DNA from: Ancylobacter sp. WKF20
GTDB taxonomy: Bacteria; Pseudomonadota; Alphaproteobacteria; Rhizobiales; Xanthobacteraceae
DNA: 64,000 nt
NCBI RefSeq assembly: GCF_029760895.1
Contig: NZ_CP121679.1
Location: 4,384,001 to 4,448,000, forward strand
Direction of reading: 5' to 3'
The notes under the pieces: model-generated
What the model saw: only the letters and a program-made list of their open reading frames with translations
The model's database searches: none
Told to the model about the DNA's origin: nothing
Made by a program: the position numbers and the translations under genes
Shown: positions 40,015 to 62,051 of the stretch, piece after piece
How the letters are laid out: every line of letters begins with the position of its first letter
Numbering within the stretch: the first letter of the stretch is position 1

Positions 40015-40038
40015 CGGTCCTCGTGCGCCGTCCTTGTG

Positions 40039-40065
40039 ACAAATGTAATTCATCTTGACGTTTGT
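40039..40065. promoter_or_regulatory. Candidate SorC operator and promoter of the sugar transport operon
   Basis: The arms ACAAATG (40039-40045) and CGTTTGT (40059-40065) are inverted repeats with one mismatch. The right arm overlaps a TTGACG (40055-40060) that could be the -35 box of the rightward operon. Binding here would block transcription and could also autoregulate the divergent regulator gene. Confidence 0.5.
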
Positions 40066-40155: not shown

Positions 40156-41112
40156 ATGCCATTCCGAGCAATGAAGAACTGCGTCCTCGGCGCTGTCGCC
40201 GCCGCGACCGTGATGGCGGCGGTGCCGGCCTTCGCGCTGGACATCGCCTGGGTGCATTCCAACGCTGCCGCCCAGTCCGAGCAGCGCGTGAAGGCCGGCT
40301 TCCAGGCCTGGCTGAAGGAGACCGGCAAGTCCGACTGGCGCGTCGCCTATCTCGACAGCGGCGGCTCCGGCGAGAAGACCGCCGCCAACATCCAGGATGC
40401 CGCCTCGCGCGGCGTCGGCGCCATCATCATCTCCATGGCCGATCTGCGGGCGTCCTCGGCCGCGATCAAGGAAGCCGTGGCGCAGAAGATCCCGATCTTC
40501 ACCGTCGACAGCGGGTCGGTTGACGGCACGCTGGTGGACGTGACCACCAACAATTGGGCGATGAGCGCCACGGTCTCGCCCTTCTTCCTCAACGAGCTCG
40601 GCAAGAACCCGAAGATCATCTTCCTGCGCATGGCCGAGCATCACGGCACCCGCAAGCGCGGCGAGACCATGGCGACCGTGCTGAAGGAATACCCGGACGT
40701 GAAGGTGCTGGCCGAGCACAATATCGACTACACCGCCTTCTTCGAGGACACGACGCGCACGATGCAGGACTATGTGACCCGCTTCGGCGACCAGATCGAC
40801 GGCGTGTGGGCGCCGTGGGACGAGCCGGCCCAGGCGGCGCTGAACGCGCTGAAGGCGGGCGGCAACACCCACGCCAAGGTCATCGGCATTGACGGCCACC
40901 CGCAGGCGATCGCCGAGGTCTGCAAGCCCGGCAGCCAGATGATCGCCACCATCAGCCAGCCCTTCGAGAAGATGGGCGCGCAGACCGGCGAATGGATCGA
41001 GGACATCGTGGTCGAGAAGAAGCCGGCCGCCGACGTCATTCCCTCCAAGGTCGTCTATCTCGACGCCCCGCTCGTCACCAAGGCGAACTGCAAGGACTTC
41101 CTCCCGAAGTGA
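40156..41112 (+). CDS. Sugar ABC transporter solute-binding protein (RbsB-type)
   Basis: The protein has 318 residues from ATG 40156, with AGGGAGAG upstream. A signal peptide (CVLGAVAAATVMAAVPAFA) precedes a periplasmic binding fold of the ribose/galactose type: DIAWVHSNAAAQSEQRVKAG, IQDAASRGVGAIIISMADLR and DGVWAPWDEPAQAALNALKA. The ligand should be a pentose, polyol or related small sugar. First gene of the cluster A operon. Confidence 0.93.
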   Translation: MPFRAMKNCVLGAVAAATVMAAVPAFALDIAWVHSNAAAQSEQRVKAGFQAWLKETGKSDWRVAYLDSGGSGEKTAANIQDAASRGVGAIIISMADLRASSAAIKEAVAQKIPIFTVDSGSVDGTLVDVTTNNWAMSATVSPFFLNELGKNPKIIFLRMAEHHGTRKRGETMATVLKEYPDVKVLAEHNIDYTAFFEDTTRTMQDYVTRFGDQIDGVWAPWDEPAQAALNALKAGGNTHAKVIGIDGHPQAIAEVCKPGSQMIATISQPFEKMGAQTGEWIEDIVVEKKPAADVIPSKVVYLDAPLVTKANCKDFLPK

Positions 41113-41177
41113 GCCCTTGGGACGGCCGGCGCGCCCCAGGCGCCGGCCGTTCTCTTTCGCCAGCGGAGGCAGCGGCC

Positions 41178-42692
41178 ATGGCCATCGAACTCACCGATAT
41201 CATCATGGACTATCCCGGCACGCGGGCGCTCGACCGCGTCAGCGTCGCCTTTCGCACGGATGAGGTCCATGGCCTGATCGGCGAGAACGGCGCCGGCAAG
41301 ACCACGCTGGTCTCCATTCTTGGCGGCAGCCGCCTGCCCAGCGAGGGCCGGATGACGCTCGACGGCGAGGAGGTTCGCCTTACCTCGCCGGGCGAGGCGC
41401 TGGCGCGCGGCATCGCCCATGTCTCGCAGGAAGGCAGCCTCGTGCCCAGCCTCACCGGCGCGGAGAACATCCTGCTCGGCAACGAGCCGCGCTACCCCGG
41501 TGGCATCGTCCGGCGCGGTGCGCTGCGCGATCAGGCTCGCGCGCTGATGGCGCGCTGGTTCCCTGACCTCACCATCGACCTCGACCAGCCGGTCGAGACG
41601 CTGCCCTATGCCGACCAGAAGATCATCGAGATCGTCCGCGCGCTGCGCGGGCGCATCCGCGTCCTCATTCTCGACGAGCCGACCGCGACGCTGCCCGCGC
41701 GCGAGAAGGAGCGGCTCTGGGCGATCATCCGCCGCCTGCCGGCGCAGGGCGTCGGCGTCGTGCTGATCAGCCATTTCCTCTCCGAGATCATCGCGCTGTC
41801 CGACCGCATCACCGTGCTGCGCGACGGGCGCCTGATCCGCACCTTCCCGGCCGCCGGGGCGAGCGAGGGCGAACTGACGGCGCTAATGCTCCAGCGCGGG
41901 CACGGCCCCTCCGATGGCGCCGAGCGGGACCGGCGGGGCGGGGCCCTCGGCGCGCCGGTTGTCGAGGTCTCGAACTGGCGGATCCCGGAAGCCGAGGTCG
42001 GCGCCTTCCACATTCGGGCCGGCGAGATCGTCGGCCTCATCGGCCTCACCGGCTCCGGCCATTTCGCCTTCGCCCGCTCGCTCTATGACGCGCCGGACCT
42101 TATCGGCGGCACGCTGCGCCTCGGCGGCGAGGTCATGCCGCAGGTCACCGCGCATGCGATGCGCCGGCGCGGTGTCGCCTTCATCCCCGACCACCGCATG
42201 ATCCACTCGCTGATCGGCGAGTGGAGCGCGCGCGAGAACCTCGCCATGGTGCATCCCGAGGCCGGCGCCTTCGGGGCGCTCGGCATCCTCAGCCCGCGCC
42301 GCGAGAGCGCCGAGGCGCGCGCGGTGATGGCACGCCTGTCCGTCAAGGCCTCCTCGACCGAGCAGGCGGTGGGCGAGCTCTCCGGCGGCAACAAGCAGAA
42401 GATTTCCATCGGCAAATGGCTCTACGGCGCCAAGGGCCGCTACCGCCTTATGATTTTCGTCGAGCCCACAGAGGGCGTCGACATCGGCGCCAAGCGCGAG
42501 ATCCACGCTTTGCTGCGCGGCCTCGCCGCCGAGGGCACGGCGATCCTTGTCGCCTCTTCCGACCTTATCGAGATCGCGGAGCTCTCCACCCGCGTCGTAT
42601 CCTTCGTCAACGGGCAAGCCCTCGGAGACCTCGCATGGCCCAACTTCTCGGAACAGAGCTTCATCGCGGCGATGTCGGGGGCGCGGGCATGA
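41178..42692 (+). CDS. Sugar ABC transporter ATPase, tandem domain (RbsA-type)
   Basis: The protein has 504 residues from ATG 41178, with GGAGG eight bases upstream; the earlier open frame lies in the preceding gene. Domain 1 is canonical: Walker A GENGAGKTT, Walker B LILDEPTATLP and H-loop LISHFLSE. Domain 2 has a degenerate Walker A (GLTGSGHFAF), as in RbsA-type proteins, and a good signature LSGGNKQK. Its Walker B reads LMIFVEPTEGVDIGAK, with Val where Asp is normal. Only the first site is expected to hydrolyse ATP. Confidence 0.93.
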   Translation: MAIELTDIIMDYPGTRALDRVSVAFRTDEVHGLIGENGAGKTTLVSILGGSRLPSEGRMTLDGEEVRLTSPGEALARGIAHVSQEGSLVPSLTGAENILLGNEPRYPGGIVRRGALRDQARALMARWFPDLTIDLDQPVETLPYADQKIIEIVRALRGRIRVLILDEPTATLPAREKERLWAIIRRLPAQGVGVVLISHFLSEIIALSDRITVLRDGRLIRTFPAAGASEGELTALMLQRGHGPSDGAERDRRGGALGAPVVEVSNWRIPEAEVGAFHIRAGEIVGLIGLTGSGHFAFARSLYDAPDLIGGTLRLGGEVMPQVTAHAMRRRGVAFIPDHRMIHSLIGEWSARENLAMVHPEAGAFGALGILSPRRESAEARAVMARLSVKASSTEQAVGELSGGNKQKISIGKWLYGAKGRYRLMIFVEPTEGVDIGAKREIHALLRGLAAEGTAILVASSDLIEIAELSTRVVSFVNGQALGDLAWPNFSEQSFIAAMSGARA

Positions 42693-43672
42693 GTGCACCC
42701 GCCGCGACGCCGCGCACCGGGGAAACCGCCCGCCAGCGCAAGCAGCTCTTCCTGCGCTATTCGACGCTGGTCGTGCTCGTGCTGCTGTTCATCGGCTTCT
42801 CGCTGGGTGTCGACCGCTTCCTGACCACCTCGAACCTGCTGAACATTCTCCAGCAGATCTCGATGCTGACCATCGTCGCCATCGGCCTCACCTTCGGCTT
42901 CGCCGCGCGGGAGATGGACCTGTCGGTCGGCTTCATGGCGGGGCTTGCCGGCCTCATCGCGCCGACCCTGCTGGTGGCCGGCTGGTCGCTGCCGGTCGCG
43001 CTCGCCGCCGGGCTGGGGGCGGGCCTCGCCGTGGGTCTCGTCAACGCCCTGCTGGTGACGATTGTCGGCGTGCCCTCGCTCATCGCCACCCTCGCCATGG
43101 GATCGATCCTGTTCGGCGTGAACTTCCTGCTCTCCGGCGGGCGGGCGATCTATGGCGGCCTGCCCGACAGCTATCTGGTGCTCGGGCAGGGGCGGCTCTT
43201 CGGCATCCCGGTGCTCGCCTTCATCATGTTCGGCGCGGTGATCCTCGCCTGGTTCGTCATGGAGCGCACCATTGTCGGGCGCTACATCTATGCGGTGGGC
43301 GGCAACCTGAAAGCCGCCGAGCTTTCCGGCATTCGCGGCCGGCGCTACCGCCAGCTCGCGCTGGTGATCTGCAGCCTGTTCGCGGCCACCGCCGGCATCC
43401 TGCTCTCGGCCCGCCTCGGCTCCGGCCAGCCCAATGCCGGGCAGGACTATCTGCTCGACGGCCTCGCCACCGTGTTCATCGGCATGACCATGTTCCGGCC
43501 GGGCACGGCGACCATCGCCGGCACCTTCTTCGGCGCGCTGTTCATCGGCGTCATCAATAACGGGCTGAACCTCATTGGCCTCGACACCTACATCCAGAGC
43601 ATCGTGAAGGGCGTCATCATCATCGTCGCCGTCGCGATCGTCTCCCGCACCACCAAGCTGAAGCTCCTCTGA
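42689..43672 (+). CDS. Sugar ABC transporter permease (RbsC-type)
   Basis: The protein has 327 residues, and its ATGA start overlaps the ATPase stop. Eight to ten hydrophobic segments carry the BPD_transp_2 family pattern: IGLTFGFAAREMDLSVGFMA, VGVPSLIATLAMGSILFG, and the coupling region AVGGNLKAAELSGIRGRRYR. It probably works as a homodimer with the RbsA-type ATPase. Confidence 0.95.
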   Translation: MSAPAATPRTGETARQRKQLFLRYSTLVVLVLLFIGFSLGVDRFLTTSNLLNILQQISMLTIVAIGLTFGFAAREMDLSVGFMAGLAGLIAPTLLVAGWSLPVALAAGLGAGLAVGLVNALLVTIVGVPSLIATLAMGSILFGVNFLLSGGRAIYGGLPDSYLVLGQGRLFGIPVLAFIMFGAVILAWFVMERTIVGRYIYAVGGNLKAAELSGIRGRRYRQLALVICSLFAATAGILLSARLGSGQPNAGQDYLLDGLATVFIGMTMFRPGTATIAGTFFGALFIGVINNGLNLIGLDTYIQSIVKGVIIIVAVAIVSRTTKLKLL

Positions 43673-43705
43673 GCGAACGTGCGTCATCAAGGACCAGTCC
43701 CCGTC

Positions 43706-44758
43706 ATGACCGACACCCGATCCGCCTCCCCGCCTGCCGGGACCAACACCGATCTCCTCGGCCTGTACCGGACCATGCGGCGCATCCGCACCTTCGAGGA
43801 GCGCGTCGGCGAACTCTTCGTGCGCGGCCTCTCCGCCGGCTCCATGCTGCATCTGTCGATCGGCGAGGAATCGGCGGCGGCGGGCGTCGCCAGCGCCATG
43901 CGGCCGGAGGACACCTTCACCACCCATCACCGCGGCCACGGCATCTTCCTCGCCCGCGGCGCCGATCCGTCGCGGATGATGGCGGAGATCGCTGGCAAGG
44001 AAACCGGCTACTGCGCCGGCAAGGGCGGTTCGATGCACATTGCCGACATGGCGCTCGGCCATCTCGGCGCCAACGCCATTGTCGGCGGCGGCATCCCGGC
44101 GGTTGTCGGGGCGGGCCTGTCGGCCAAGCGGCTGAAGACCGGCAGCGTGTCGATCGCCTTCTTCGGCGATGGGGCGATGGGCCAGGGCATTCTCTATGAG
44201 AGCATGAACATGGCGGCGCTCTGGGAGCTGCCGGTGCTGTTCGTCTGCATCAACAATCAGTACGGCATGGGCACCCGCGTCGATCAGGCGACGCGCAACG
44301 AGGCGTTCGACGAGCGCGCCCGCGCTTTCGGCCTGCAGGGCGCCATGGTCGATGGCAATGACGTGGAAGCGGTGGCCGCGACCGCCAAGGATCTGGTCGA
44401 TGCCGCCCGCGCCGGCAAGCCGGGCTTTCTCGCCGTCTCCTGCTACCGCTTCTTCGGCCATGCCCGCATGGACAAGAGCCCCTACCGCGCCGAGGAAGAG
44501 GAGCTCGCCGGCCGCCAGCGCGACCCGGTGAAACATGCCCGCGCCGCCCTGCTGGAGCGGGGCCTCGCCCCGGAGAGCGCGCTCGACGCGCTCGACACCG
44601 AGATCGCCGCCGAGATGGACGCGACGATTGACTTCGCCGCCGCCTCCCCGGCGCCGCCGCTCGCCTCCATGTTCCGCGACGTGTTCGCCGTCGGCGAGCC
44701 CGAACCCGAGCCTGTCCGCACCCGGCTCGACCGCGTTCTGTCCAAGGAAATCCGCTGA
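43706..44758 (+). CDS. ThDP-dependent dehydrogenase E1 alpha subunit (AcoA-like)
   Basis: The protein has 350 residues from ATG 43706; a GTG at 43679 is an alternative. It matches the pyruvate/acetoin dehydrogenase E1 alpha family. Evidence includes RTFEERVGELFVRGLSAGSM, HRGHGIFLARGADPSRMMAE and the ThDP motif FFGDGAMGQGILYESMNMAA, ending in VCINN. The absence of a branched-chain-type N-terminus and the fit to the following genes favour an acetoin-dehydrogenase-like enzyme, which cleaves alpha-hydroxyketones. Its four-base-close neighbour E1 beta completes the heterotetramer. Confidence 0.9.
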   Translation: MTDTRSASPPAGTNTDLLGLYRTMRRIRTFEERVGELFVRGLSAGSMLHLSIGEESAAAGVASAMRPEDTFTTHHRGHGIFLARGADPSRMMAEIAGKETGYCAGKGGSMHIADMALGHLGANAIVGGGIPAVVGAGLSAKRLKTGSVSIAFFGDGAMGQGILYESMNMAALWELPVLFVCINNQYGMGTRVDQATRNEAFDERARAFGLQGAMVDGNDVEAVAATAKDLVDAARAGKPGFLAVSCYRFFGHARMDKSPYRAEEEELAGRQRDPVKHARAALLERGLAPESALDALDTEIAAEMDATIDFAAASPAPPLASMFRDVFAVGEPEPEPVRTRLDRVLSKEIR

Positions 44759-45732
44759 TGGTCCAGATCACCTACCGCGACGCGCTGCGTCAGGCGCTTA
44801 TCGACGCGATGGAAGCGGATGAGCGCGTCATCGTCATCGGTGAGGAAGTCGGCCGCTATGGCGGCGCCTATGGCGTGACCAAGGGCCTGATCGACACGTT
44901 CGGCGGCGACCGGCTGATCGACACGCCGATCTCCGAGCCGGCGATCATCGGTGCCGCTGTCGGCGCGGCGATGACCGGCCTGCGCCCCGTCGCCGAGCTG
45001 ATGTATGTCGACTTCCTCGGCATGACCATGGACCAGCTCACCAACCAGGCGGCCAAGATCCGCTACATGTTCGGCGGGCAGATCGGCGTGCCGATGGTGC
45101 TGCGCACGCAGGGCGGCACGGGCCGCTCCGCCGGCGCGCAGCATTCGCAGAGCCTTGAGGCCTGGGTGATGCACATGCCCGGCCTGCGCCTCGTCATGCC
45201 CGCCACCGCCGAGGACGCCTATCACCTGCTGCGCCACGCGCTGACCATGCCGGACCCGGTCGTGTTCATCGAGCACAAGGCGCTCTACACCCGCAAGGAA
45301 GAGGCCGACCTCACCACCGCGAAGCTGCCCTGGGGCAAGGCGGCGGTGCGCCGCGACGGTAAGGACGTGGTCATCGTCACCTATTCCCGGCAGGTGCATT
45401 ACGCGCTCGAGGCCGCCGAGACGCTGGCGAAAGAGGGCATCGAGGCGACGGTGATCGACCTGCGCACCCTCAACCCGCTCGACATGGACACGGTGATCGC
45501 GCACGTCGAGAAGATCGGCCGGGTGGCCGTGGTCTCGGAAGGCCCGCTGACCGCTGGCGTCGCCGCCGAGCTGTCGGCGCGCATCACCGAGGAATGCTTC
45601 GACTTCCTGCACGACCCGGTGATCCGCATCGCCGGCGAGGACATCCCGATCTCCGTGTCGCAGGAGCTGGAAGCGGGCAGCGTGCCGTCCCCGGCGCTGA
45701 TCGGGGACGCCGTGCGGCGGCTGCTGTCATGA
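44758..45732 (+). CDS. ThDP-dependent dehydrogenase E1 beta subunit (AcoB-like)
   Basis: The protein has 324 residues, and its start A is the last base of the E1 alpha stop codon. Family features are VIVIGEEVGRYGGAYGVTKG, RLIDTPISEPAIIGAAVGAA, AELMYVDFLGMTMDQLTNQA and the C-terminal transketolase domain with VIDLRTLNPLDMDTVIAHVE. It binds the ThDP pyrophosphate region together with E1 alpha. It overlaps the next gene by four bases. Confidence 0.93.
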   Translation: MVQITYRDALRQALIDAMEADERVIVIGEEVGRYGGAYGVTKGLIDTFGGDRLIDTPISEPAIIGAAVGAAMTGLRPVAELMYVDFLGMTMDQLTNQAAKIRYMFGGQIGVPMVLRTQGGTGRSAGAQHSQSLEAWVMHMPGLRLVMPATAEDAYHLLRHALTMPDPVVFIEHKALYTRKEEADLTTAKLPWGKAAVRRDGKDVVIVTYSRQVHYALEAAETLAKEGIEATVIDLRTLNPLDMDTVIAHVEKIGRVAVVSEGPLTAGVAAELSARITEECFDFLHDPVIRIAGEDIPISVSQELEAGSVPSPALIGDAVRRLLS

Positions 45733-47303
45733 GCGCCGCCATTCTCACCATGCCCCGTCTCGGCGAGACGATGGAGGAGGGGCGGATCGTCGGCTGGCTG
45801 ATCGCCGAGGGCGATGCCTTCAAGCGCGGCGACCCGATCCTCGAAATCGAGACCGACAAGACCGTGGCCGAGCTGCCCGCCCTGACCGATGGCGTGCTGG
45901 CCGAAAAGCTGGTCGCGCCCGGCGACATGATCGTCGTCGGCGCCCCCATCGCCCGGCTGAAGGGCGAGGACGGCGCGAGCCCCGCGCCAGTCGCCAGCGG
46001 GCGCGTCACCCGCACCCTCGCCATGCCGCGCCTCGGCGAGACCATGGATGAAGGGCGCATCGTCGGCTGGATGGTTCAGCCGGGCGCCGCCTTCAAGCGC
46101 GGCGACGGGTTGTTCGAGATCGAGACCGACAAGACGGTTGCCGAATTTCCCGCGCTGATGGACGGCACGCTCATCGAGACGCTGGTGGAGCTCGGCTCCA
46201 TGGTGCCGGTCGGCGCGCCGCTGGCGCGGGTGGAAATCGCGGCGGCCGACGCCGGGATGGAAGGCTTCCTTCCCGACGCGGCCGCGGCGGTTTCGCCCGC
46301 TCCGCCCGCAACCCCACCGGCCCCCTCCGCGCCCACTCCTGCCCCGGTGACATCGGCTTCCGTGGCGAGCGGTCATGATGCGCCCGTACCGGTATCGCTC
46401 GATCCGGCCGCACCCCGGCGCGCGACCCCCATCGCCCGGCGGCTCGCCGCGCGGGCAGGGATCGATCTCGCCAGCCTGCGCGGCACCGGCCGGCGTGGGC
46501 GCATCGAGGCGCGTGATGTCGAAGCGGCGCTGGCGGGCGGGGCTGTCGCCGCGCCGGGCGCCATCGCCTTCGATCGCCATGGCACGCCGGGCGCGGCGCG
46601 GCGGGCGCTGCTGCTGCACGGCTTCGCTGGTGACCGCACCACCTTCGCCGCCTTCGCCACCCAGCTTGGCCGCGCCGGTTATGACGTGTTGGTGCCGGAC
46701 CTGCCGGGCCATGGTGCGACCGCATTGGAAGCTACCAGCGCGGCCGATCTTTCCGCGCCGCTGCCGGGCTTTCTCGCCGCGCAACGCTTCGCCCCGACCG
46801 AGATTGTCGCCCATTCGCTGGGCGCCGTCGCGGCGGTGGCGCTGGCGGAGACGCTGCCGGGCGTGCAGCGCCTCACGCTGCTCTGCCCCGCCGGGCTTGA
46901 GCTCGCCATTGATGGCGATTTCATCGCCGGCATGGCCGCGCGACCCTCACCCGGCGCGCTGCGCCATTTGCTGCGGCGCCTCACCGCCCGCCCGGCCGGG
47001 CTGTCCGATGCCGCCGTCGCCGGTCTTGCCGCGACGCTCGGTGCCGGCCGGCTCACGGCGCTCGCCGATGACGCTTTCGGTCCGGGTGGCCAGCAGGTCG
47101 ACATCGTCGAGCCGCTCACCCGCCTGTCCCGGCGCATGAGCGTGCGTCTCGTCATCGGGCTGGAGGACCGCATCATCCCGTGGACGCAGGTGGCCGTGGC
47201 GCCCTCGCGGGTCGCCATCCACCTCATCGCCGGCGCCGGCCACATGCCGCATTGGGACCAGCCCGGCGAGGTTCTCGCGCTGTTTGAAGGAGATCCCGCA
47301 TGA
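45729..47303 (+). CDS. Lipoyl-lipoyl-PSBD-alpha/beta-hydrolase fusion (AcoC-like E2)
   Basis: The protein has 524 residues in four parts. Residues ~3-77 and ~95-170 are two lipoyl domains, with acceptor lysines near 44 and 135 (both ETDKTVAE). An Ala/Pro linker follows. Residues ~232-266 are a peripheral subunit-binding domain (ATPIARRLAARAGIDLASLR). Residues ~290-524 are an alpha/beta hydrolase with LLLHGFAGDRTTF, nucleophile near Ser363 (AHSLGAVAA) and histidine in GAGHMPHWDQP. The acyltransferase core of E2 is absent. Known AcoC proteins join one lipoyl domain to a hydrolase; two lipoyl domains plus a PSBD is richer. Presumably it transfers or hydrolyses the acyl-lipoyl intermediate (inference). 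No E3 gene is in the window. Confidence 0.9.
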   Translation: MSAAILTMPRLGETMEEGRIVGWLIAEGDAFKRGDPILEIETDKTVAELPALTDGVLAEKLVAPGDMIVVGAPIARLKGEDGASPAPVASGRVTRTLAMPRLGETMDEGRIVGWMVQPGAAFKRGDGLFEIETDKTVAEFPALMDGTLIETLVELGSMVPVGAPLARVEIAAADAGMEGFLPDAAAAVSPAPPATPPAPSAPTPAPVTSASVASGHDAPVPVSLDPAAPRRATPIARRLAARAGIDLASLRGTGRRGRIEARDVEAALAGGAVAAPGAIAFDRHGTPGAARRALLLHGFAGDRTTFAAFATQLGRAGYDVLVPDLPGHGATALEATSAADLSAPLPGFLAAQRFAPTEIVAHSLGAVAAVALAETLPGVQRLTLLCPAGLELAIDGDFIAGMAARPSPGALRHLLRRLTARPAGLSDAAVAGLAATLGAGRLTALADDAFGPGGQQVDIVEPLTRLSRRMSVRLVIGLEDRIIPWTQVAVAPSRVAIHLIAGAGHMPHWDQPGEVLALFEGDPA

Positions 47304-47626
47304 GCAGCGAGCTGAAGGAGGTTCACGCCCGCCTCGGGCATTTCGCCAAGGCCGTGCCCGAGGTCGCCGCCGGCTTTCGCCAGCTGAGCAAGGCGGCGGG
47401 CGCGGCGGGGCGCTTCACCCCGGCGCAGAAGGAGCTGTTCGCCGCCGTCTTCGGCGTGGTGCGTGGCTGTGAGGACTGCGTGGTCTATCACGTCGATGCC
47501 GCCCGCCGTCTTGGTGCCGCGCGCGAGGATCTGCTCGAACTGCTCGCCGTCGCCGTGGAAATGGGCGGCGGTCCGGCCATGGTCTACGGCGCCAAGGCGC
47601 TGAAGGCCTTTGACGACGCCAACTGA
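47300..47626 (+). CDS. Carboxymuconolactone decarboxylase-like (AhpD-fold) protein
   Basis: The protein has 108 residues and overlaps the E2 stop as ATGA. The CMD signature is present: CEDCVVYHVDAARRLGA, with the redox pair Cys57/Cys60 and His64. AhpD, of this fold, reduces peroxidases using lipoyl domains. An analogous link to the lipoylated E2 next door is attractive, but inferred. Decarboxylase activity is unlikely for the CxxC type. Confidence 0.85.
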   Translation: MSSELKEVHARLGHFAKAVPEVAAGFRQLSKAAGAAGRFTPAQKELFAAVFGVVRGCEDCVVYHVDAARRLGAAREDLLELLAVAVEMGGGPAMVYGAKALKAFDDAN

Positions 47627-47687
47627 CCGCACGCGATAACGGGTTGCGACGGGAGATCAACTCCCGCGAGCCTCTGGAGGAAACGAT

Positions 47688-49199
47688 ATGGCCTATGTGG
47701 TCGCCGTCGACGGCGGAACCGAGAGCCTGCGCGCCGGCGTCTATGACCCGTCCGGCGCTTGCCTCGGGCAGGCGAGCCATCCCTATGGCACGGAATTCGC
47801 GCCGGGCGCGCGCGCCGAGCAGAACCCGGAGGACTGGTGGACGGCGCTCGGCATCGCCACCAAGGCGGCGCTGGCGAAAGCCGGCGTTGACCCGCAGGCG
47901 GTGGAGGCGATCTGCCTCACCACCACCTCCTGCACCGTGGTCGCGCTCGATGCTGAGGGCAACGCGCTGCGCCCGGCGCTTCTATGGATGGATGTGCGCG
48001 CCGGCGAGGAAGCGCAGGCCGTGCTTGCCACCGGCGATCCGGCGCTGGCGGCGAACGGGGCTGGGCGCGGGCCGGTCTCGGCGGAGTGGATGATCCCCAA
48101 GGCGCTCTGGCTGAAGCGCCATGAGCCGCACATTTTCGAGCGCGCCGTCACCATCGGCGAGTATCAGGACTTCATGACCATCCGCCTCACCGGGCGGCGG
48201 GTCGCCTCGCTCAACAATGCCTCCATCCGCTGGCACTACGCCACGACGCGCGAGGGCTTCGCGGCCTCGCTGGTGACGGCGCTGGGGCTTGAGGCGCTGC
48301 TCGACAAATGGCCGCCCGAGGTCGCCGCGCCGGGGGCCGTGATCGGCACGCTCACCGCGCGCGCGGCCGAGCATATCGGCCTGCATAGCGGGGTGAAGCT
48401 CGTGCAGGGTGGCGCCGATGCGCTGATCGGCATGATCGGCCTCGGCGTCGCCAAGCCCGGCCAGCTCGCGCTCATCACCGGTTCCTCGCATCTGCAGTTC
48501 GGCGTGTCGGACCGCGAGGTGCATCACCCCGGCCTGTGGGGCTCCTATCCCGACGCGGTCTACCCGGCCCGCCACATCATTGAGGGCGGGCAGACCTCGA
48601 CCGGCTCGATCCTGCAATGGATGAAGCGGCTGATGGGCGGAACGATGGACCTCGACGCGCTCAACACCGCCGCCGCGCGGCTCGAGCCGGGCTGCGACGG
48701 GCTGATCGTGCAGGACCACTTTCAGGGCAACCGCACGCCCTATGTCGACCCGCTCTCACGCGGGGCGGTGATCGGCCTGACGCTGGCGCATGGGCCGGAG
48801 CACATCTTCCGCGCCATCATCGAGGGCATCTCCTTCGGCACCCGCGCCATTCTCGACCAGATGGCGGAGGCCGGCTTCCGCTCGACCGAGCTGACGGTCG
48901 GCGGCGGGGCGACCGCCTCCGAGCTGTGGTTGCAGATCCATGCCGACACGTCGGGCCTGCCGGTCTGCGTGCCCGCCTCCAGCGCGGCGCCCTCCGTGGG
49001 CGCCGCCGTGCTCGCCGCCCATGGCGCAGGTCACTTCGCCTCCATCGACGAGGGCATCGCCGCCATGGTGCGACCTGGCCGGCGCATTGAGCCCCGCGCC
49101 CGCGAGGCCACCCGCTATGACGAGATCTACCAGCGCTACCGGGCGCTCTACCCGGCGCTGAAGAACCTTCCCGCGACGTCGACCGGGGCCGCCCGATGA
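47688..49199 (+). CDS. FGGY-family carbohydrate kinase (cluster A)
   Basis: The protein has 503 residues. An FGGY N-terminus is seen with VVAVDGGTESLRAGVYDPSG, ICLTTTSCTVVALDAEGNAL and PALLWMDVRA. The C-terminal domain has ITGSSHLQFG, FQGNRTPYVDPLSRGAVIGL and the ATP-binding VGGGATASELWLQIHADTSG. It belongs to the ribulokinase/xylulokinase/polyol kinase superfamily. The exact substrate is not readable. It starts 61 bases after the CMD gene and overlaps the next SDR by four bases, so it acts in the same pathway. Confidence 0.9.
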   Translation: MAYVVAVDGGTESLRAGVYDPSGACLGQASHPYGTEFAPGARAEQNPEDWWTALGIATKAALAKAGVDPQAVEAICLTTTSCTVVALDAEGNALRPALLWMDVRAGEEAQAVLATGDPALAANGAGRGPVSAEWMIPKALWLKRHEPHIFERAVTIGEYQDFMTIRLTGRRVASLNNASIRWHYATTREGFAASLVTALGLEALLDKWPPEVAAPGAVIGTLTARAAEHIGLHSGVKLVQGGADALIGMIGLGVAKPGQLALITGSSHLQFGVSDREVHHPGLWGSYPDAVYPARHIIEGGQTSTGSILQWMKRLMGGTMDLDALNTAAARLEPGCDGLIVQDHFQGNRTPYVDPLSRGAVIGLTLAHGPEHIFRAIIEGISFGTRAILDQMAEAGFRSTELTVGGGATASELWLQIHADTSGLPVCVPASSAAPSVGAAVLAAHGAGHFASIDEGIAAMVRPGRRIEPRAREATRYDEIYQRYRALYPALKNLPATSTGAAR

Positions 49200-49960
49200 A
49201 CGCGTTCCGGTTGGACGGCCGGCTGGCACTGGTCACTGGCGGGGCGCGGGGGATCGGCGCGGCGATCTGCACCCGTTTCGCCAGCGCCGGCGCTCATGTC
49301 ATCGTCGCCGACCGCGATGTCGCGGCGGCCGAGGCGCTCGCCGGCGCGCTGCGTGCCGAGGGCGGCACGGCTGACGCCCTCGCGCTCGACGTGACGGACC
49401 GCGCCGGTATCGCCGACGCGCTGGCGAGCCTGCGCGCACGCCACGGTGTGCCGCATATCCTCGTCAACAATGCCGGCATCGTCCGCAACGCGCCGGCGGC
49501 GGAGATGAGCGTGGAGGACTGGTCGGCGGTGATCGACGTCGATCTCAACGGCGTCTTCCACTGCGCCCAGCTGATCAGCGGCGCCATGGTGGCGGAGGGG
49601 CGCGGGGCCATCGTCAATGTGTCCTCCATGTGCGGGGAGATCGTCGTCCATCCACAGCCGCAAATCGCCTACAACGCCGCGAAGGCGGGCGTGAACATGC
49701 TCACCAAGTCGCTCGCCGTGGAATGGGCGCGCCGGGGCGTGCGGGTCAATGCGGTGGCGCCCGGCTACACCGCGACCGAGCTCACTCTCGCCGGCCGCAG
49801 CAATCCCGACTGGTTCAATGTGTGGCTCGACCGCACGCCGATGGGCCGTCTCGGCGAGCCGCACGAGATCGCCGATGCCGTGCTGTTCCTCGCCAGCGAT
49901 GCCGCCAGCTTCATCACCGGCGCCGTCCTCGCGGTGGATGGCGGCTACACAGCCCTTTGA
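49196..49960 (+). CDS. Short-chain dehydrogenase/reductase (cluster A, first)
   Basis: The protein has 254 residues, with ATGA overlap with the kinase. The motifs are LVTGGARGIGAAICTRFASA, VNNAGIVRNAP, NVSSMCGE and catalytic YNAAK. It ends TGAVLAVDGGYTAL. SDRs in polyol operons oxidise a hydroxyl to a keto group, so a polyol or sugar dehydrogenase role is likely. Confidence 0.92.
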   Translation: MNAFRLDGRLALVTGGARGIGAAICTRFASAGAHVIVADRDVAAAEALAGALRAEGGTADALALDVTDRAGIADALASLRARHGVPHILVNNAGIVRNAPAAEMSVEDWSAVIDVDLNGVFHCAQLISGAMVAEGRGAIVNVSSMCGEIVVHPQPQIAYNAAKAGVNMLTKSLAVEWARRGVRVNAVAPGYTATELTLAGRSNPDWFNVWLDRTPMGRLGEPHEIADAVLFLASDAASFITGAVLAVDGGYTAL

Positions 49961-49971
49961 GGAGACTTCCT

Positions 49972-50733
49972 ATGGCTTCCACCGACACCGCCCGCGTCGC
50001 GCTCGTCACCGGCGCCAGCCGTGGCATTGGCCGGGCCATCGCGCTCGGCCTCGCTGAACGCGGCTATGATCTCGTGGTGAACGACATTTCTCGTCAGGCC
50101 GAGGCGCTGGCCTCGCTGGTCGGCGAGATCGAGGCGGGCGGGCGACGCGCCCTCGCGCTCCACGCCGATGTCAGCTCCAAGGCCGAGGTGACGGCGATGG
50201 TGGCTGAGGCCATCGCCTGGGCCGGTCATGTCGAGGCGGTGGTGAACAATGCCGGCATCCTCATCACCAGCCCGGTCGCGACGCTGGACGAAGGCGTCTG
50301 GGACGCGGTGATGGACGTGAACGCCAAAGGCAGCTTCCTCGTCATCCAGGCGCTGCTGCCGCATATGCGCGCGCGCCGCTATGGCCGCATCGTCAACATC
50401 GCCTCGATCGGCGGCAAGCAGGGCGCGCCGGAGCAGGCGCATTATTCCGCCTCCAAGGCCGCCATCATGGGCTTCACCCGCGTGCTGGCGCAGGAGGTCG
50501 GCGCGGAGGGCATCACCGCCAATTGCGTTTGTCCGGGCATCATCCTCACCGATATGGGCCGCACCAATCTGGAGGATCCGGCGATCAAGGCGCGCTGGAC
50601 CGCCAACACCGCCATGCGCCGCATCGGCGCGCCGGAGGATGTGGTCGGACCGGTCGCCTTCTTCGCCTCCGACGATGCCGGCTTCGTCACCGGCCAGACG
50701 CTGAACGTCGATGGCGGCATCGTCTTCGACTGA
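49972..50733 (+). CDS. Short-chain dehydrogenase/reductase (cluster A, second)
   Basis: The protein has 253 residues from ATG 49972, with GAGGAG upstream. The motifs are ALVTGASRGIGRAIALGLAE, VNNAGILITSP, NIASIGG and catalytic YSASK. The C-terminus is TGQTLNVDGGIVFD. It differs clearly from the first SDR, so the pathway probably has two oxidation steps or two stereochemical requirements. Confidence 0.92.
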   Translation: MASTDTARVALVTGASRGIGRAIALGLAERGYDLVVNDISRQAEALASLVGEIEAGGRRALALHADVSSKAEVTAMVAEAIAWAGHVEAVVNNAGILITSPVATLDEGVWDAVMDVNAKGSFLVIQALLPHMRARRYGRIVNIASIGGKQGAPEQAHYSASKAAIMGFTRVLAQEVGAEGITANCVCPGIILTDMGRTNLEDPAIKARWTANTAMRRIGAPEDVVGPVAFFASDDAGFVTGQTLNVDGGIVFD

Positions 50734-50745
50734 GGTGCTGAGACT

Positions 50746-50774
50746 GAGGCGCCGCGTTTCGCGCGACGCCTCTT
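50746..50774. terminator. Hairpin between convergent genes
   Basis: An 11-base stem (50746-50756 against 50762-50772, one mismatch) with a TTTCG loop lies between the SDR operon and the convergent ThDP enzyme gene. It is followed only by TT, so it is a weak intrinsic terminator in either direction. Confidence 0.45.
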
Positions 50775-50783
50775 GGCTACCGC

Positions 50784-52556
50784 TTACGGAAGGTCGGGGC
50801 TGATCTTCCAGTCGCGCAGCTTGTAGACCGTGCCGGGGCGCGGGCGCGGCGTGTCGCCGCCTTCGCGCAGGCGCCGCTTGAAGCTGTGAATGGGCGTGGC
50901 GAGGTCGTCGACCCGCACTTCCACCACGGACGGTCCGTCATAGGCGAAGGCGGCATCGAGCGCCGGGCCGAGTTCGTCGGGCTTCTCGACATAGAACCCC
51001 TTCAACCCGAGCCCGCTCGCCGCCGCCGCGAAATTGGGGTGGCAGCTCTGGCTCTCCAGCAGCGCCGACTGCACGTTCTTGAAGAAGATGTCCTGCCAGA
51101 GCTGGATCCAGCCAAGCCGGCCATTGTTCAGCACGACATTGACGACCTTCTGGTTGCGCTGCGCCTGCGTCGCCAGTTCGCCGATCGTGTAGGAGAAGGC
51201 GCCGTCGCCGGCCACGGTGACGATGCGAGTACCCGGCCGGGTCTCGGCCGCGCCGATGGCGGCGGGAATGGCATAGCCGAGCCCGCCCTGGCCGCGCGCA
51301 TAAAGGAAGGAGCGGCCGGGCCGGCGCGCCGGGATGTAGTTGGCGATCCAGCCGGCGGAGAAGCTGGCGTCGGAGACGACGATATCGTCCAGCTCCAGCC
51401 GCGCCGCCACCTCGTCCATGACGCGGGCGGGATGGAGCAGAAGCTGCTCGCTTTCGATCTCCGTGCGCTTCTGTCGCTCGCCTTCGGCCTTCAGCTCGGC
51501 GATGCGCGCCGCCCAGTCGGGATGTGTCTGCGCGGGGAGGGCGGCGTTGAGGAGGGTCAGCGCCTCGCGCACATCGCCCAGCAGGGCGACGGTCGGCAGG
51601 AAGGTGCGGCCATGCTCGTTGGGGTCGCAGTCGATGGTGATGGTCGCCTGCTCGGGCAGCGGCAGGGTCCAGTTCATCGCGGTGTTCTGGCTCGCCTTGG
51701 AGCCGCACCAGATGACGAGATCGGCTTCCTTGATCAGCTCGATCGCCGCCCAGGAACCGAGTGGGTTGAGCGTGCCGCCCGCATAGCTCGCCGTCTCCGC
51801 CACCGCGCCGCGCCCGGTGAGGCTGGTCACGGCGAGGCCGCCGAGCCTTTCGGCGAAGTCGGAGGCTTGCGTGCAGGCGAGCGCCCCGTGCACGCCGCCG
51901 CCGAACACCACCGCCGGGCGCTTCGCCCGTTCGATCAGCGCCACCGCCTCGGCCACGGAGGAGGACACCGGTGCCGAGCGCAGGAACGGGGCCTGTATGG
52001 CGCGCTCATCAATGCCGATGCGGATCTCTTCCTCGTTCCACTCCGCGTCGAAGATGTCGTGCGGGATGATCAGCGCCACCGGGCCGGGGCGCGGCGAGGT
52101 GGCGACGCGGAAGGCGGTGCGGATGAGCTCGGGCAGCGCCGCCTTGGAGGGCACCAGCCAGCTGTCCTTGGTGATAGTCTTGAAGAAGGAGAGCTGGTCG
52201 AAGCCCTGAGAAGCGATGCCCTTGTCCTTCAGCGAGAGCCAGTCGAGCGGCAGCTCGCCGACAATGCCGATCATCGGCACCGAGGCGTTCAGCGCCTCGA
52301 TGAAGCCGGCCGGCAGGAGATTGGCGCCGGGCCCGACGGTGACATCGCACACGCCGGGCTTGCCGGTCAGGCGCGCATAGGCGTCGGCGGCATAGGCCGC
52401 GTTGCGCTCGTCGCGCATCAGCACATGACGAATGCGGTCGGTGCGGCGGGAAATGCCGTCATGCAGCGCCGTGGTCTGCCCGCCCGGCATGCCGAACACC
52501 AGCTCGACGCCGTAACGCGCGAGCATCTCGGCCACCAGATCACCCATATGGGCCAT
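50784..52556 (-). CDS. ThDP-dependent enzyme, acetolactate synthase-like
   Basis: The protein has 590 residues from ATG 52556, with AAGGAG upstream. The three-domain ThDP decarboxylase/lyase fold is visible. The N-terminal domain has VELVFGMPGGQT and a conserved Glu in RDERNAAYAADAYARLTGKP. The middle domain is of the TPP-M type. The C-terminal domain has the ThDP motif VAGDGAFSYTIGELATQAQR ending VLNNGRLGWIQ. Acetolactate synthase itself has a different active-site loop. Related enzymes include glyoxylate carboligase, sulfoacetaldehyde acetyltransferase and decarboxylases. In this operon context it may make or break an alpha-hydroxyketone bond (inference). Confidence 0.85.
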   Translation of the reverse strand: MAHMGDLVAEMLARYGVELVFGMPGGQTTALHDGISRRTDRIRHVLMRDERNAAYAADAYARLTGKPGVCDVTVGPGANLLPAGFIEALNASVPMIGIVGELPLDWLSLKDKGIASQGFDQLSFFKTITKDSWLVPSKAALPELIRTAFRVATSPRPGPVALIIPHDIFDAEWNEEEIRIGIDERAIQAPFLRSAPVSSSVAEAVALIERAKRPAVVFGGGVHGALACTQASDFAERLGGLAVTSLTGRGAVAETASYAGGTLNPLGSWAAIELIKEADLVIWCGSKASQNTAMNWTLPLPEQATITIDCDPNEHGRTFLPTVALLGDVREALTLLNAALPAQTHPDWAARIAELKAEGERQKRTEIESEQLLLHPARVMDEVAARLELDDIVVSDASFSAGWIANYIPARRPGRSFLYARGQGGLGYAIPAAIGAAETRPGTRIVTVAGDGAFSYTIGELATQAQRNQKVVNVVLNNGRLGWIQLWQDIFFKNVQSALLESQSCHPNFAAAASGLGLKGFYVEKPDELGPALDAAFAYDGPSVVEVRVDDLATPIHSFKRRLREGGDTPRPRPGTVYKLRDWKISPDLP

Positions 52557-52646
52557 GGAACTCTCCTTGGGATCACGAAAAGCGCGCGGTCCGCGTCGGG
52601 GCGGATCAGTGCGCGCGGGCAAGTGTCGCCTTGCTCTCTGTTTGGC

Positions 52647-52675
52647 ATAATTCAGTTACGATTGAATTTTGTCAA
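52647..52675 (-). promoter_or_regulatory. Promoter of the ThDP gene with a palindromic operator in its spacer
   Basis: On the minus strand TTGACA (52675-52670) is followed by exactly 17 bases and AATTAT (52652-52647), a good sigma-70-type promoter. The plus-strand inverted repeat AATTCA...TGAATT (52649-52668) overlaps the spacer and -10. This suggests repression by the divergent SorC-type regulator at 52754. Confidence 0.6.
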
Positions 52676-52753
52676 TGGCGAGTTTCAGTGGACATTGGCA
52701 TACGCCATGAGGCATGAGCCGAGAGGTGAGCCGATGGGCAGGGGAGGGGCGGC

Positions 52754-53737
52754 ATGGCGAAGCGGATAGAGCGTGGCGGCGCGGCGGAACGCGCGCCCGA
52801 GGACACGCAATTCGCGCTCGATCCGGTGCTGACGGCGGCCTGGCTCTATTATGAGGAAGGGCTGAAGCAGGATGAGATCGCCAGCCGCTTCGGCATCTCG
52901 CGGGCGAGCGTGTTCAACCTGCTGCAGAAGGCGCGCGACGAGGGCGTGGTCAGCGTCTCGCTCGACATCGACCGCATCCGGGCGCTGCGTCTTGCCCGCA
53001 CGTTGAGCGAGGCGACGGGTCTCGCGGAGTGCTACATCGTTCCCGCCGAGGGCAATGACCGGCCGGTGGCCGAGCGCATCGCCGGGCTCGGCGCGCGGCT
53101 GCTGGAGCGGCGGATCACCGCCGACAGCGTGCTCGGCGTCGCCTGGGGGCGCACGGTCATGGCGCTCTCGCAGGCATTGGCCTCTCTCAACCTGCCGAGC
53201 ACCACCATCGCGCAGATCACCGGCAGCGCCATCGGCACCTATGATTTCTCGCCGGAGCTCTGCACCTCCAACATCGCGCTGAAGGTGGGCGGGCGCTGCG
53301 TGAACATGCTGGCGCCGGGCATCGTCTCCAGCGCCGAGATGAAGCAGCGCCTGATGGTGGAGCCCATCGTCGCCCAGCATTTCGCGCTGCTGCGCGCCTG
53401 CGACATCACGCTGTTCGGGGTGACCGATCTCGGCGAGGGCACCTCGCTGATGCATAGCGGCTTCATGACCGAGCCGACGCTGGCCGATTACCGCGCCCAT
53501 GGCGCCGTCGGGTTCGTCTCGGGCTACTTCTTCGATCAGGCTGGCCGTCCGGTGCTCACCGGCCTCGACGACCGGCACCTCTCCATGCCGCGCGAGGATT
53601 TCCTCGCCGTGCCCACGCGCATCTGCGTCGGCGGCGGTCCGTCCAAGGTCGAGGCGATCGCCGCCATGCTGCGGGGCGGATATGCCAATGTGCTGGTGAC
53701 CGACGAGACCACCGCCCGCGCCGTGCTGGCGGCCTGA
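52754..53737 (+). CDS. SorC/DeoR-type sugar-binding regulator (second)
   Basis: The protein has 327 residues, with GGGGAGGGG upstream of ATG 52754. The helix-turn-helix is EEGLKQDEIASRFGISRASV, and the effector domain has GVAWGRTVMALSQALASLNL and DQAGRPVLTGLDDRHLSMPR. It is divergent from the ThDP gene and the best candidate to control it. A second SorC regulator heads the operon at 39016, so cluster A has two sensors of one family. Confidence 0.93.
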   Translation: MAKRIERGGAAERAPEDTQFALDPVLTAAWLYYEEGLKQDEIASRFGISRASVFNLLQKARDEGVVSVSLDIDRIRALRLARTLSEATGLAECYIVPAEGNDRPVAERIAGLGARLLERRITADSVLGVAWGRTVMALSQALASLNLPSTTIAQITGSAIGTYDFSPELCTSNIALKVGGRCVNMLAPGIVSSAEMKQRLMVEPIVAQHFALLRACDITLFGVTDLGEGTSLMHSGFMTEPTLADYRAHGAVGFVSGYFFDQAGRPVLTGLDDRHLSMPREDFLAVPTRICVGGGPSKVEAIAAMLRGGYANVLVTDETTARAVLAA

Positions 53738-53747
53738 GCCGGGGCGG

Positions 53748-54557
53748 TCATTTCACAATGAAATGCAGCCGCGCCTGATCGGTGCGGTAGACCGCCGTGT
53801 AATACTCCACCGGCTCGTCGGTCTGCATATAGGTGACGGATTCGATGGCGATCACCGGGGAGCCGGCGGGGATTTCCAGCAGCTCCGCCTGTTCCGGCGT
53901 CGCGGTCGCCGCTTCCAGCCAGCGCTCGGCGCGCTTCATGGTGATGCCGTAGCGCCGGGCCAGCGTGTCATAGAGAGAGCGGTTGTGCATCGGCACCTGC
54001 TCGAAGCCCGGCGTCAGGCGCTGGGTGATGAAGGTGTGCACGAGAATGCGCGGCATGCCGTCGACGCTCAGCACGCGGTCGAGCGCCACCACCGGCTCCT
54101 CCGGCCCGAGACGCAGCATCTGGCGCACATGGTCGGTCGGGCTCACCAGCTCCTGCCGGAGAATCGTGCGGCTGACCGAGTGGTTGGTGTGATGCAGCTC
54201 GCCGGAGAAGCCGATATTCGAGCCGAGGAAGCCGTGATCGTCGCGCTTGGCGGCGACAAAGGCGCCCTTGCCCTGGAGCTTGTAGATCACCCGCTCGGAG
54301 ACGAGCTGGTTCAGCGCCTCGCGCACCACGGTGCGGGAGACGCCCAAGCTCTCGCATAGCTCGGATTCGGAGGGCAGACGGGCATTGTCCGGCAGCTTCT
54401 CGGTGACGATCAGGTTCAGCAGCGCCGCCTTGACCTGCGACCAGAGCGGCAGGCCGGAGCCATTGCCGCGCAGGCCGTTGTCCCGCTCCGCCAGACTCCG
54501 CAGCGTCGGCAGAAGATCGGTCTCGGGGCTGGCGGAACGGCGACGCGGCTGGTTCAT
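53748..54557 (-). CDS. GntR-family transcriptional regulator (HutC/UTRA type)
   Basis: The protein has 269 residues. The winged helix is near 55-110 (LPSESELCESLGVSRTVVRE, ALNQLVSERVIYKLQGKGAF), followed by the UTRA effector domain (RVLSVDGMPRILVHTFITQR, EPVEYYTAVYRTDQARLHFI). It overlaps the end of the GlpD-like gene by four bases and is transcribed with it. The palindrome at 56470-56485 is a likely binding site. Confidence 0.92.
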   Translation of the reverse strand: MNQPRRRSASPETDLLPTLRSLAERDNGLRGNGSGLPLWSQVKAALLNLIVTEKLPDNARLPSESELCESLGVSRTVVREALNQLVSERVIYKLQGKGAFVAAKRDDHGFLGSNIGFSGELHHTNHSVSRTILRQELVSPTDHVRQMLRLGPEEPVVALDRVLSVDGMPRILVHTFITQRLTPGFEQVPMHNRSLYDTLARRYGITMKRAERWLEAATATPEQAELLEIPAGSPVIAIESVTYMQTDEPVEYYTAVYRTDQARLHFIVK

Positions 54558-56248: not shown

Positions 56249-56438
56249 GGGGCGCTCCTGTTGGGCTCGGCCGGCGGGAGTGGCGGTTCCGGCCGCCGCC
56301 CTGCCGGCAGGGTGGCTGTCATTGCGCCAACTCATAATGACAAGTGAGAACGACCATAACGGCGCTGTCCTGTCAATCCGCGCGTTTCATCGGATAAATA
56401 CGCTGCATTGCATCATTTTTAGAGTGCGGTGAAAGCAG

Positions 56439-56466
56439 TTGACGGCCGAAGCGCCGTCGATATGAT
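56439..56466 (+). promoter_or_regulatory. Strong promoter of the FGGY kinase/transporter operon
   Basis: TTGACG (56439-56444) is followed by 16 bases and TATGAT (56461-56466). The palindrome at 56470-56485 lies over the expected start point. The kinase ATG is 72 bases further. Confidence 0.6.
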
Positions 56467-56469
56467 CAA

Positions 56470-56485
56470 ACATGTAATTACGTGT
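56470..56485. promoter_or_regulatory. 16-bp palindrome, candidate GntR operator
   Basis: ACATGTAATTACGTGT is self-complementary except for one base pair, around the core GTAATTAC. Its position just after the -10 box suits a repressor site for the GntR protein at 53748. No second copy was found near the GlpD gene start. Confidence 0.55.
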
Positions 56486-56538
56486 TGAGCTTCGGCAAAC
56501 GAAGCCGCGCCGGCTATGTTCGGCTCCTGGAGGACGCC

Positions 56539-58059: not shown

Positions 58060-58179
58060 CCCTTAGGGCCCACCGGCCCCGTGCCGCGCGCGACAAGGCG
58101 TTGCGCGCGTGTGAACCGTCATGCCCCCACACCGGCGGGATGGCGAGCCGTCAGACACGTCCCCCGCAATGAGGCGCAG

Positions 58180-59286: not shown

Positions 59287-59287
59287 C

Positions 59288-60360: not shown

Positions 60361-60364
<4 letters not shown>
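59288..60364 (+). CDS. glpT: Polyol ABC transporter ATPase 2 (GlpT-like)
   Basis: The protein has 358 residues from ATG 59288, with GGGAGG upstream, one base after the first ATPase stop. Walker A is GPSGCGKTT, Walker B is AAVLFDEPLTVIDPALK and the H-loop is normal (VTHDQTEAL). The signature region reads LGADAKQKISLGRGLVR, lacking the standard LSGGQ. Together with its partner, one composite ATP site is complete and the other is defective. It overlaps the permease gene by four bases. Confidence 0.88.

Positions 60365-62051
<1,687 letters not shown>

Follow-up and report, generated by a model that had tools for sequence, protein, structure and literature searches.

What does a bacterial operon accomplish that joins a sugar importer and a sugar kinase to a complex resembling acetoin dehydrogenase? 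The window that raises this question, the whole stretch of 64,000 nucleotides analysed here, belongs to Ancylobacter sp. WKF20 (4.63 Mb genome, single contig) and holds eleven genes between positions 39016 and 50733, in the order sorC1 (minus strand), solute-binding protein (SBP), ATPase, permease, E1alpha, E1beta, E2, CMD/AhpD-like protein, FGGY kinase and two short-chain dehydrogenases/reductases (SDR1 and SDR2). We estimate a probability of about one half that this operon breaks down a deoxy-sugar alcohol, or the matching 1-deoxyketose, through a 1-deoxyketose phosphate to acetyl-CoA and an aldose phosphate. The deoxyketose reading fits best because of the kinase–E1–E2 core, the polyol-type SDR1, a polyol-type motif in the SBP, a basic amino acid in one loop of E1alpha, and parallel clusters that contain DXR-II-like (DRL) genes. 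A preliminary description of this DNA had proposed that a polyol or deoxysugar is converted to a 1-deoxyketose phosphate and split by an acetoin-dehydrogenase-like complex; that route remains the best fit to the comparative evidence, but the divergent thiamine diphosphate (ThDP) enzyme and the second SorC regulator that it had counted among the parts do not belong to it.

We infer the substrate and each catalytic step from what is observed of the genes, their order and conservation, the E1 clade and the loop residue. A deoxy-sugar alcohol would be imported and oxidised, an SDR converting the deoxy-alditol to the 1-deoxyketose, or the 1-deoxyketose would itself be imported; the FGGY kinase would phosphorylate it at the far end, and E1, on ThDP, would split the C2–C3 bond of the phosphorylated product. 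The acetyl unit would then pass to the lipoyl arms of E2 and be transferred to CoA by its hydrolase-fold domain, and the aldehyde half would be released as an aldose phosphate; for a five-carbon sugar the products would be acetyl-CoA and glyceraldehyde 3-phosphate, a reaction that formally reverses 1-deoxy-D-xylulose 5-phosphate (DXP) synthase, yet is oxidative and involves no CO2. Reduced lipoyl groups would be recycled by a housekeeping E3, and the AhpD-like protein may act as a thiol-redox partner, AhpD being reducible through a lipoyl E2. If true, this would be an added route for carbon into central metabolism, in which a machine of the 2-oxoacid dehydrogenase type works on a sugar phosphate, and it would account both for a conserved operon of Alphaproteobacteria and for the catabolic setting of DRL relatives beside E1–E2 genes. 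No description of the pathway was found among the best-ranked matches in openly licensed PMC papers, which does not prove its absence, and no openly licensed PMC paper was found that combines acetoin dehydrogenase with FGGY.

Recurrence of the operon genes

We found that the core of FGGY kinase, E1alpha, E1beta and E2 stands together in 28 of 37 related loci, and all eleven operon genes in 17 of them. These loci result from one search of genome contigs with the window E2, with genes scored at identity floors of 34% (SBP, ATPase, E2), 39% (sorC1), 45% (permease, SDRs) or 50% (the rest); among named organisms the closest match in that search was Ancylobacter amanitiformis, with an E2 85% identical. 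Because several of the loci are short contigs, positive gene counts are lower bounds: E1beta was present in 37, E1alpha and E2 in 36 each, the kinase in 29, ATPase and permease in 25 each, sorC1 in 24, the SBP in 23, each SDR in 22 and CMD in 19. A neighbourhood survey of E2 homologues with an FGGY kinase had been suggested beforehand, and the association it looks for is present. By tblastn, kinase, SorC, DRL and phosphotransferase system (PTS) proteins found no match in 40 other E1 loci, a panel picked by hand from the listed E1alpha matches of class genomes, or in 3 acetoin loci (vs. 29/37 for the kinase and 24/37 for SorC).

The gene linkage is not due to chance: the set is found again in multiple alphaproteobacterial orders, and also in Caballeronia (L037, L051), where ten of them stand in a different arrangement, no CMD was found and the SBP is 36% identical to that of the window. 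The surroundings of the core vary: in Chthonobacter (L036) a single SDR is present, with 38% identity to SDR2, and four loci (L039, L041, L043 and L123) keep kinase, E1alpha, E1beta and E2 but have neither SDRs nor an SBP of the window type; of these, L123 carries a sorC gene as well, and L039 and L043 have other ABC genes farther along. The kinase was missing from 8 of the 37 loci, five of which (L029, L044, L047, L050, L052) are short or at a contig edge. On plasmids, the nine records in which E1beta reaches at least 60% identity were the same nine that carry the kinase at 65–73%, and tblastn of the window E2 matched 7 records. A kinase search of class genomes gave matches in 9 of 385, and among the matches listed for these 385 genomes E1alpha exceeded 50% identity in two, including the window's own (100% and 72%; next 46%).

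Within the window, positions 40156 to 50733 fit a single operon, because there are four ATGA overlaps (ATPase/permease, 42689–42692; E1beta/E2, 45729–45732; E2/CMD, 47300–47303; kinase/SDR1, 49196–49199), one single-base overlap (E1alpha/E1beta, 44758) and gaps of 11–65 bp (65 bp between SBP and ATPase, the others 33, 61 and 11 bp). Every gene that the preliminary description had named was recovered, open and in the position and order it gave, by ORF listing and family scans, and the ATGA overlaps and short spacers were likewise read in the sequence. Divergent from the operon, sorC1 (39016–40053, minus strand) encodes a sugar-binding regulator of SorC/DeoR type (Sugar-bind PF04198, 162 bits) and is its probable regulator; of the two SorC genes originally assigned to the system this first one belongs, though it lies outside the span then given, and the second was seen in 0/37 loci.

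The E1–E2 complex and its loop residue

E1alpha (43706–44758, plus strand) and E1beta (44758–45732, plus strand) are the two chains of a ThDP enzyme, and E2 (45729–47303, plus strand) is of AcoC type, with two lipoyl domains, an E3-binding domain and an alpha/beta-hydrolase acyltransferase (Pfam Biotin_lipoyl, E3_binding and Abhydrolase); it has two ETDKT lipoyl motifs, and several relatives have one lipoyl motif. In both E1 trees the window E1, the FGGY-linked rows and the kinase-less relatives (five in the E1beta tree, four in the E1alpha tree) form one clade with a long stem (100/100 in each), apart from the acetoin references, the pyruvate dehydrogenase (PDH) rows and the DRL-linked rows; the acetoin reference clade is likewise separate (100/100 for E1beta, 100/99 for E1alpha). 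The E1beta tree has 53 rows, omits L040 and L050, and includes as row L148 the acetoin reference G432, the same as L149; the E1alpha tree has 68 rows, among them 15 chosen FGGY-linked rows, and omits rows with X or fewer than 250 residues, L148, L159, extra copies from the window's own genome and further FGGY-linked rows. Five loci (L045, L046, L047, L048 and L052) have an E1 of the window clade with no FGGY kinase in view, and L045 and L048 have an aldo/keto reductase and a galactarate/altronate dehydratase-type gene nearby (for L048 by likeness of the printed starts only), because of which an L-fucose-like link for the window system may be kept as a candidate.

The E1 clade also differs at one loop position, the second residue after a conserved His, which in the window is Arg254 (GHARMDKSPYR). 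Arg occupies it in 34/34 FGGY-linked rows and 4/4 kinase-less members of the window clade, Lys or Arg in 4/4 DRL-linked E1s (several sugar-linked E1s adjoining DRL genes), and Lys in the one E1 linked to SorC and PTS genes in C. difficile (L100). A basic residue was found at this position in 0/40 panel rows, 0/3 acetoin references, 0/1 own PDH and 0/1 Vescimonas; PDH rows have Met, 9 of 12 E1alpha rows of the acetoin clade have Glu, and seven panel sequences, counted from the conserved His, carry Met, Leu or Glu there. Four rows in which this His does not align were left out of the counts: two from the panel (both L159), one linked to FGGY, and the other E1 of the window's genome (L146). Arg or Lys at the loop thus accompanies sugar-phosphorylating neighbours, or clade members of such E1s, in the sequences seen, because of which we suggest that the loop Arg meets the phosphate of the substrate. 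The window segment aligns with the phosphosite-loop segment of human PDH E1alpha, on a residue numbering that we take to match it to Ser264 and Ser271. These human phosphosites lie in loops that become ordered upon ThDP binding, as described in the text available of PMC10216297.

Could the complex instead be a 2-oxoacid (pyruvate-like) dehydrogenase that supplies acetyl-CoA within a sugar operon? The likeness to PDH is genuine in that E1alpha and E1beta are of the same family and E2 is a lipoyl protein; E1alpha scores highest against the pyruvate dehydrogenase E1 alpha model (TIGR03182, 320 bits), and E1beta passes the broad pyruvate dehydrogenase E1 beta subfamily model (NF006667, 370 vs. 321 bits). 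However, E1alpha falls below both pyruvate dehydrogenase E1 alpha equivalog cut-offs (319.9 vs. 393.85 and 203.9 vs. 411.35 bits), the window E1 lies outside the PDH clade with Arg in place of the loop Met, the catalytic domain of its AcoC-type E2 has a different fold, and PDH has a locus of its own in this genome (L147), which includes an E3. We regard this explanation as quite unlikely.

A genuine system for acetoin or 2,3-butanediol, standing beside sugar genes by chance, appears very improbable. The window complex shares with acetoin dehydrogenase (AcoABC, AcoL) the ThDP E1 alpha and beta chains and an E2 with a hydrolase-fold acyltransferase; the window E2 does pass the acetoin dehydrogenase E2 model (NF011457, 384.5 vs. 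307 bits), and SDR2 has acetoin reductase-like matches. Against it stand the linkage to a kinase and a sugar transporter in 28 and 23–25 of 37 loci, the separate acetoin E1 clade with its prevailing loop Glu in place of Arg, and a separate AcoC homologue (494 bits) in the same-genus genome G460. Dedicated acoL (E3), acoX and acoR genes are features of acetoin dehydrogenase operons, whereas family scans found none of the three among the eleven genes here, which include a sugar kinase, SDRs and a sugar ABC transporter. The AhpD/CMD-family protein that follows E2 (47300–47626, plus strand; PF02627, 63 bits; TIGR00778 above cut-off) has a CxxCxxxH motif, found in 23/23 copies examined.

Importer, kinase and dehydrogenases as clues to the sugar

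The importer consists of an RbsB-type periplasmic SBP (40156–41112), an ABC sugar-transport ATPase of CUT2 type (41178–42692; NCBIfam AraG/YtfR/RbsA type, below equivalog cut-offs) and a CUT2-type permease (42689–43672), all on the plus strand, with a G+C-rich hairpin in the 65-bp spacer at 41113–41177 (plus strand). All three components fall below the Rbs equivalog cut-offs (RbsB 89/337, RbsA 284.9/745, and RbsC, the ribose permease model, 218.1/398 bits). Family scan, alignments and a predicted model (mean pLDDT 87.3) characterise the SBP, whose nearest structures are 3l49 (22% identity) and 4wt7 (20%); by profile alignment it shares with both a WxxWDxP motif (W218xxW221DxP in the window), where the ribose-binding protein differs, and the motif is invariant in 23/23 aligned SBPs, including the Caballeronia one. 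4WT7 was solved with bound allitol, according to the part of PMC10318746 consulted.

SDR1 (49196–49960, plus strand) has galactitol dehydrogenase as its best solved match (2wdz/2wsb/3lqf, 228 bits), then a putative polyol dehydrogenase (3awd, 221 bits); SDR2 (49972–50733, plus strand) is a reductase/dehydrogenase with FabG-like as well as acetoin reductase-like matches; and the FGGY carbohydrate kinase (47688–49199, plus strand) is closest to xylulokinase, below the cut-off (TIGR01312, 296.2 vs. 380.25 bits). Precedents for the chemistry stand in the accessible text of PMC3424233: purified PDH makes 1-deoxy-D-xylulose from pyruvate and D-glyceraldehyde, XylB phosphorylates 1-deoxy-D-xylulose, a mutant aceE yields enough DXP in vivo whereas wild-type PDH does not, and the paper refers to a work of 1986 whose title names the formation of 1-deoxyketoses by the pyruvate and acetoin dehydrogenases.

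A polyol-type SDR1 and SBP and a kinase closest to xylulokinase would equally suit a complex that splits an ordinary ketose phosphate bearing a C1 hydroxyl, such as a pentulose 5-phosphate, to glycolyl-CoA and glyceraldehyde 3-phosphate, the input being a common polyol (a pentitol); common polyols are, moreover, more abundant than deoxy-alditols. We nevertheless hold this to be unlikely: AcoC-type E2 and E1 families are known for acetyl or short acyl groups, common pentulose phosphates enter the pentose phosphate pathway without such a complex, and the parallel clusters include genes of the DRL family, in which the characterised DXR-II enzymes use a 1-deoxyketose phosphate (PMC3847144, in the text available).

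Catabolism of autoinducer-2 (AI-2) or a related 1-deoxy diketone, in which an SDR would reduce the diketone to a 1-deoxypentulose for the kinase and the complex, is distinctly improbable in our judgement. The Lsr pathway likewise has a SorC-type regulator, an FGGY kinase and a sugar-type ABC importer, and its end products, acetyl-CoA and a triose phosphate, are like those proposed here; the sorC1 product matches LsrR (91 bits), the kinase matches LsrK (174 bits) and, in the variant locus L042, the SBP belongs to the RhaS/LsrB superfamily. However, all Lsr scores are below cut-off, the kinase reaches 296 bits against XylB, and the window SBP is RbsB-type, LsrB not being among its listed family matches. 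The Lsr pathway uses the thiolase LsrF and the isomerase LsrG and no ThDP–lipoyl complex, whereas no LsrF- or LsrG-like gene occurs among the eleven operon genes.

DRL clusters and neighbouring genes

The deoxyketose reading gains from a second kind of cluster. On a Priestia plasmid, a kinase about 40% identical to that of the window adjoins a DRL-domain oxidoreductase (PF21135, 233 bits), in a locus with SorC genes, a major facilitator superfamily (MFS) transporter, E1alpha, E1beta, E2, E3 and a glucitol-family PTS (PTS-Gut). A search with this DRL found 88 plasmid records, and in 32 of the 45 listed at 41–46% identity to it (H122–H166), which are not independent (strains and relatives, several strains of one genus), an E1beta lies 1.06–1.18 kb past the DRL on the same strand, a distance that leaves room for E1alpha. 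E1beta positions were taken from the best 60 of 525 records, and for 13 of the 45 no E1beta was among the matches listed (Listeria 3, Enterococcus 1, Ligilactobacillus 3, Pararhizobium 1, Phyllobacterium 5). Examples are Agrobacterium L095 (SorC, ABC transporter, PfkB kinase, DRL, E1alpha, E1beta, E2, E3, LipA), Terrarubrum L097 (SorC, PTS-Gut, DRL, E1alpha, E1beta, and E2 annotated as acetoin type) and Nitratireductor L099 (DRL, E1alpha, E1beta, E2, PTS-Gut). The clusters of Rhizobiales and Priestia (L061, L095, L097, L099) thus resemble the window operon in sugar uptake or PTS, phosphorylation, E1–E2 and the basic loop residue, with SorC common to the operon and L061, L095 and L097; they differ in holding DRL instead of two SDRs, in their separate E1 clades and in that an acetoin-type E2 annotation is seen only in L097. 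On a C. difficile plasmid stretch (L100), genes for SorC, E1alpha, E1beta, E2 and E3 form one run with PTS and class II aldolase genes, and no DRL or FGGY gene is annotated there.

DXR-II members of the DRL family make 2-C-methylerythritol 4-phosphate (MEP) from DXP in isoprenoid synthesis, and in the main text available of that 2013 family paper 'catabol' occurs 0 times (PMC3847144). With genes for uptake and phosphorylation next to DRL and a complex that transfers acetyl groups, the DRL clusters read naturally as a route from methylerythritol through MEP and DXP to acetyl-CoA and glyceraldehyde 3-phosphate, with DRL presumably working backwards; the E1-linked DRL genes are probably in a catabolic setting, with 2-C-methylerythritol as a candidate. 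Far more tentatively, and with doubt on our part prevailing, both systems may oxidatively split DXP (or its C3 epimer) on a lipoyl–ThDP complex, fed by deoxy-pentitols here and by 2-C-methylerythritol through a reductoisomerase run backwards in the DRL clusters, so that two so far unrecognised nutrient pathways would meet at one intermediate. Cleavage between C2 and C3 removes the C3 stereocentre, so that D-glyceraldehyde 3-phosphate would come from DXP and from its C3 epimer alike. Such a reaction, if true, would mirror, in catabolism, the step that opens isoprenoid synthesis, and its enzyme would pull DXP out of the isoprenoid pathway.

Several observations weigh against the deoxyketose reading. 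Three loci with full flanks and the same E1 clade (L045, L046, L048) have no kinase within about 21 kb; conversely, kinases 55–57% identical to that of the window occur without a window-type E1 in 3 of 5 class genomes, as does a Skermanella kinase at 53–54%, and the kinase alone is therefore not diagnostic. The trees do not group the DRL-linked E1s as sisters of the window clade, their backbone being without a resolved branching order; no DRL match was found in the FGGY-linked loci L016–L052, family scans show that the window genes are not DRL, and no locus was seen with both a window-type operon and DRL. Three DRL loci have no E1 in view: Listeria L096 (SorC, DRL, PTS-Gut), Phyllobacterium L098 (ABC transporter, DRL) and Ligilactobacillus L102 (DRL, PTS-Gut, fructose-6-phosphate aldolase, transketolase), where a branched polyol such as apiitol is perhaps converted to a pentulose phosphate. 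Finally, the suggested contact of the loop Arg with the substrate phosphate has the position of that residue as its sole basis.

DRL matches were also present in 95 of 385 class genomes; of 32 loci fetched, most DRLs were 33–36% identical to the plasmid ones and 2 at 52–62%. Because tblastn found E1 genes in 0/32, these loci add nothing to the E1–DRL link; five of them had E2-like matches at 29–33%, two of the five with an E3-like match. The window's genome itself has three DRL-family genes (G000:C1:4221321, 2108654 and 4466119; L143–L145), one of which, 51% identical to a Phyllobacterium DRL, adjoins a SorC gene 64% identical to that of Terrarubrum, with no E1 matches in the 20 kb fetched around it.

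Beyond the operon, positions 50784–53737 hold an acetolactate-synthase-like ThDP enzyme, divergent from the second SorC regulator (sorC2), and positions 53748–62051 a GntR regulator, a GlpD-like dehydrogenase, a second FGGY kinase and ABC transporter genes. As candidate parts of the system, the ThDP enzyme and sorC2, which the preliminary description had included, as well as GntR, GlpD and the second kinase, were rejected as neighbours because they occur at 50% identity or more in 0/37 related loci, as does the next ATPase past the second kinase; for genes past 50784 the weight of this zero comes chiefly from the 22 loci long enough to include both SDRs, some others being too short. The stretch at 53748–62051, with ABC transporter genes that we take to be GlpST-like, looks like a second, separate polyol locus.

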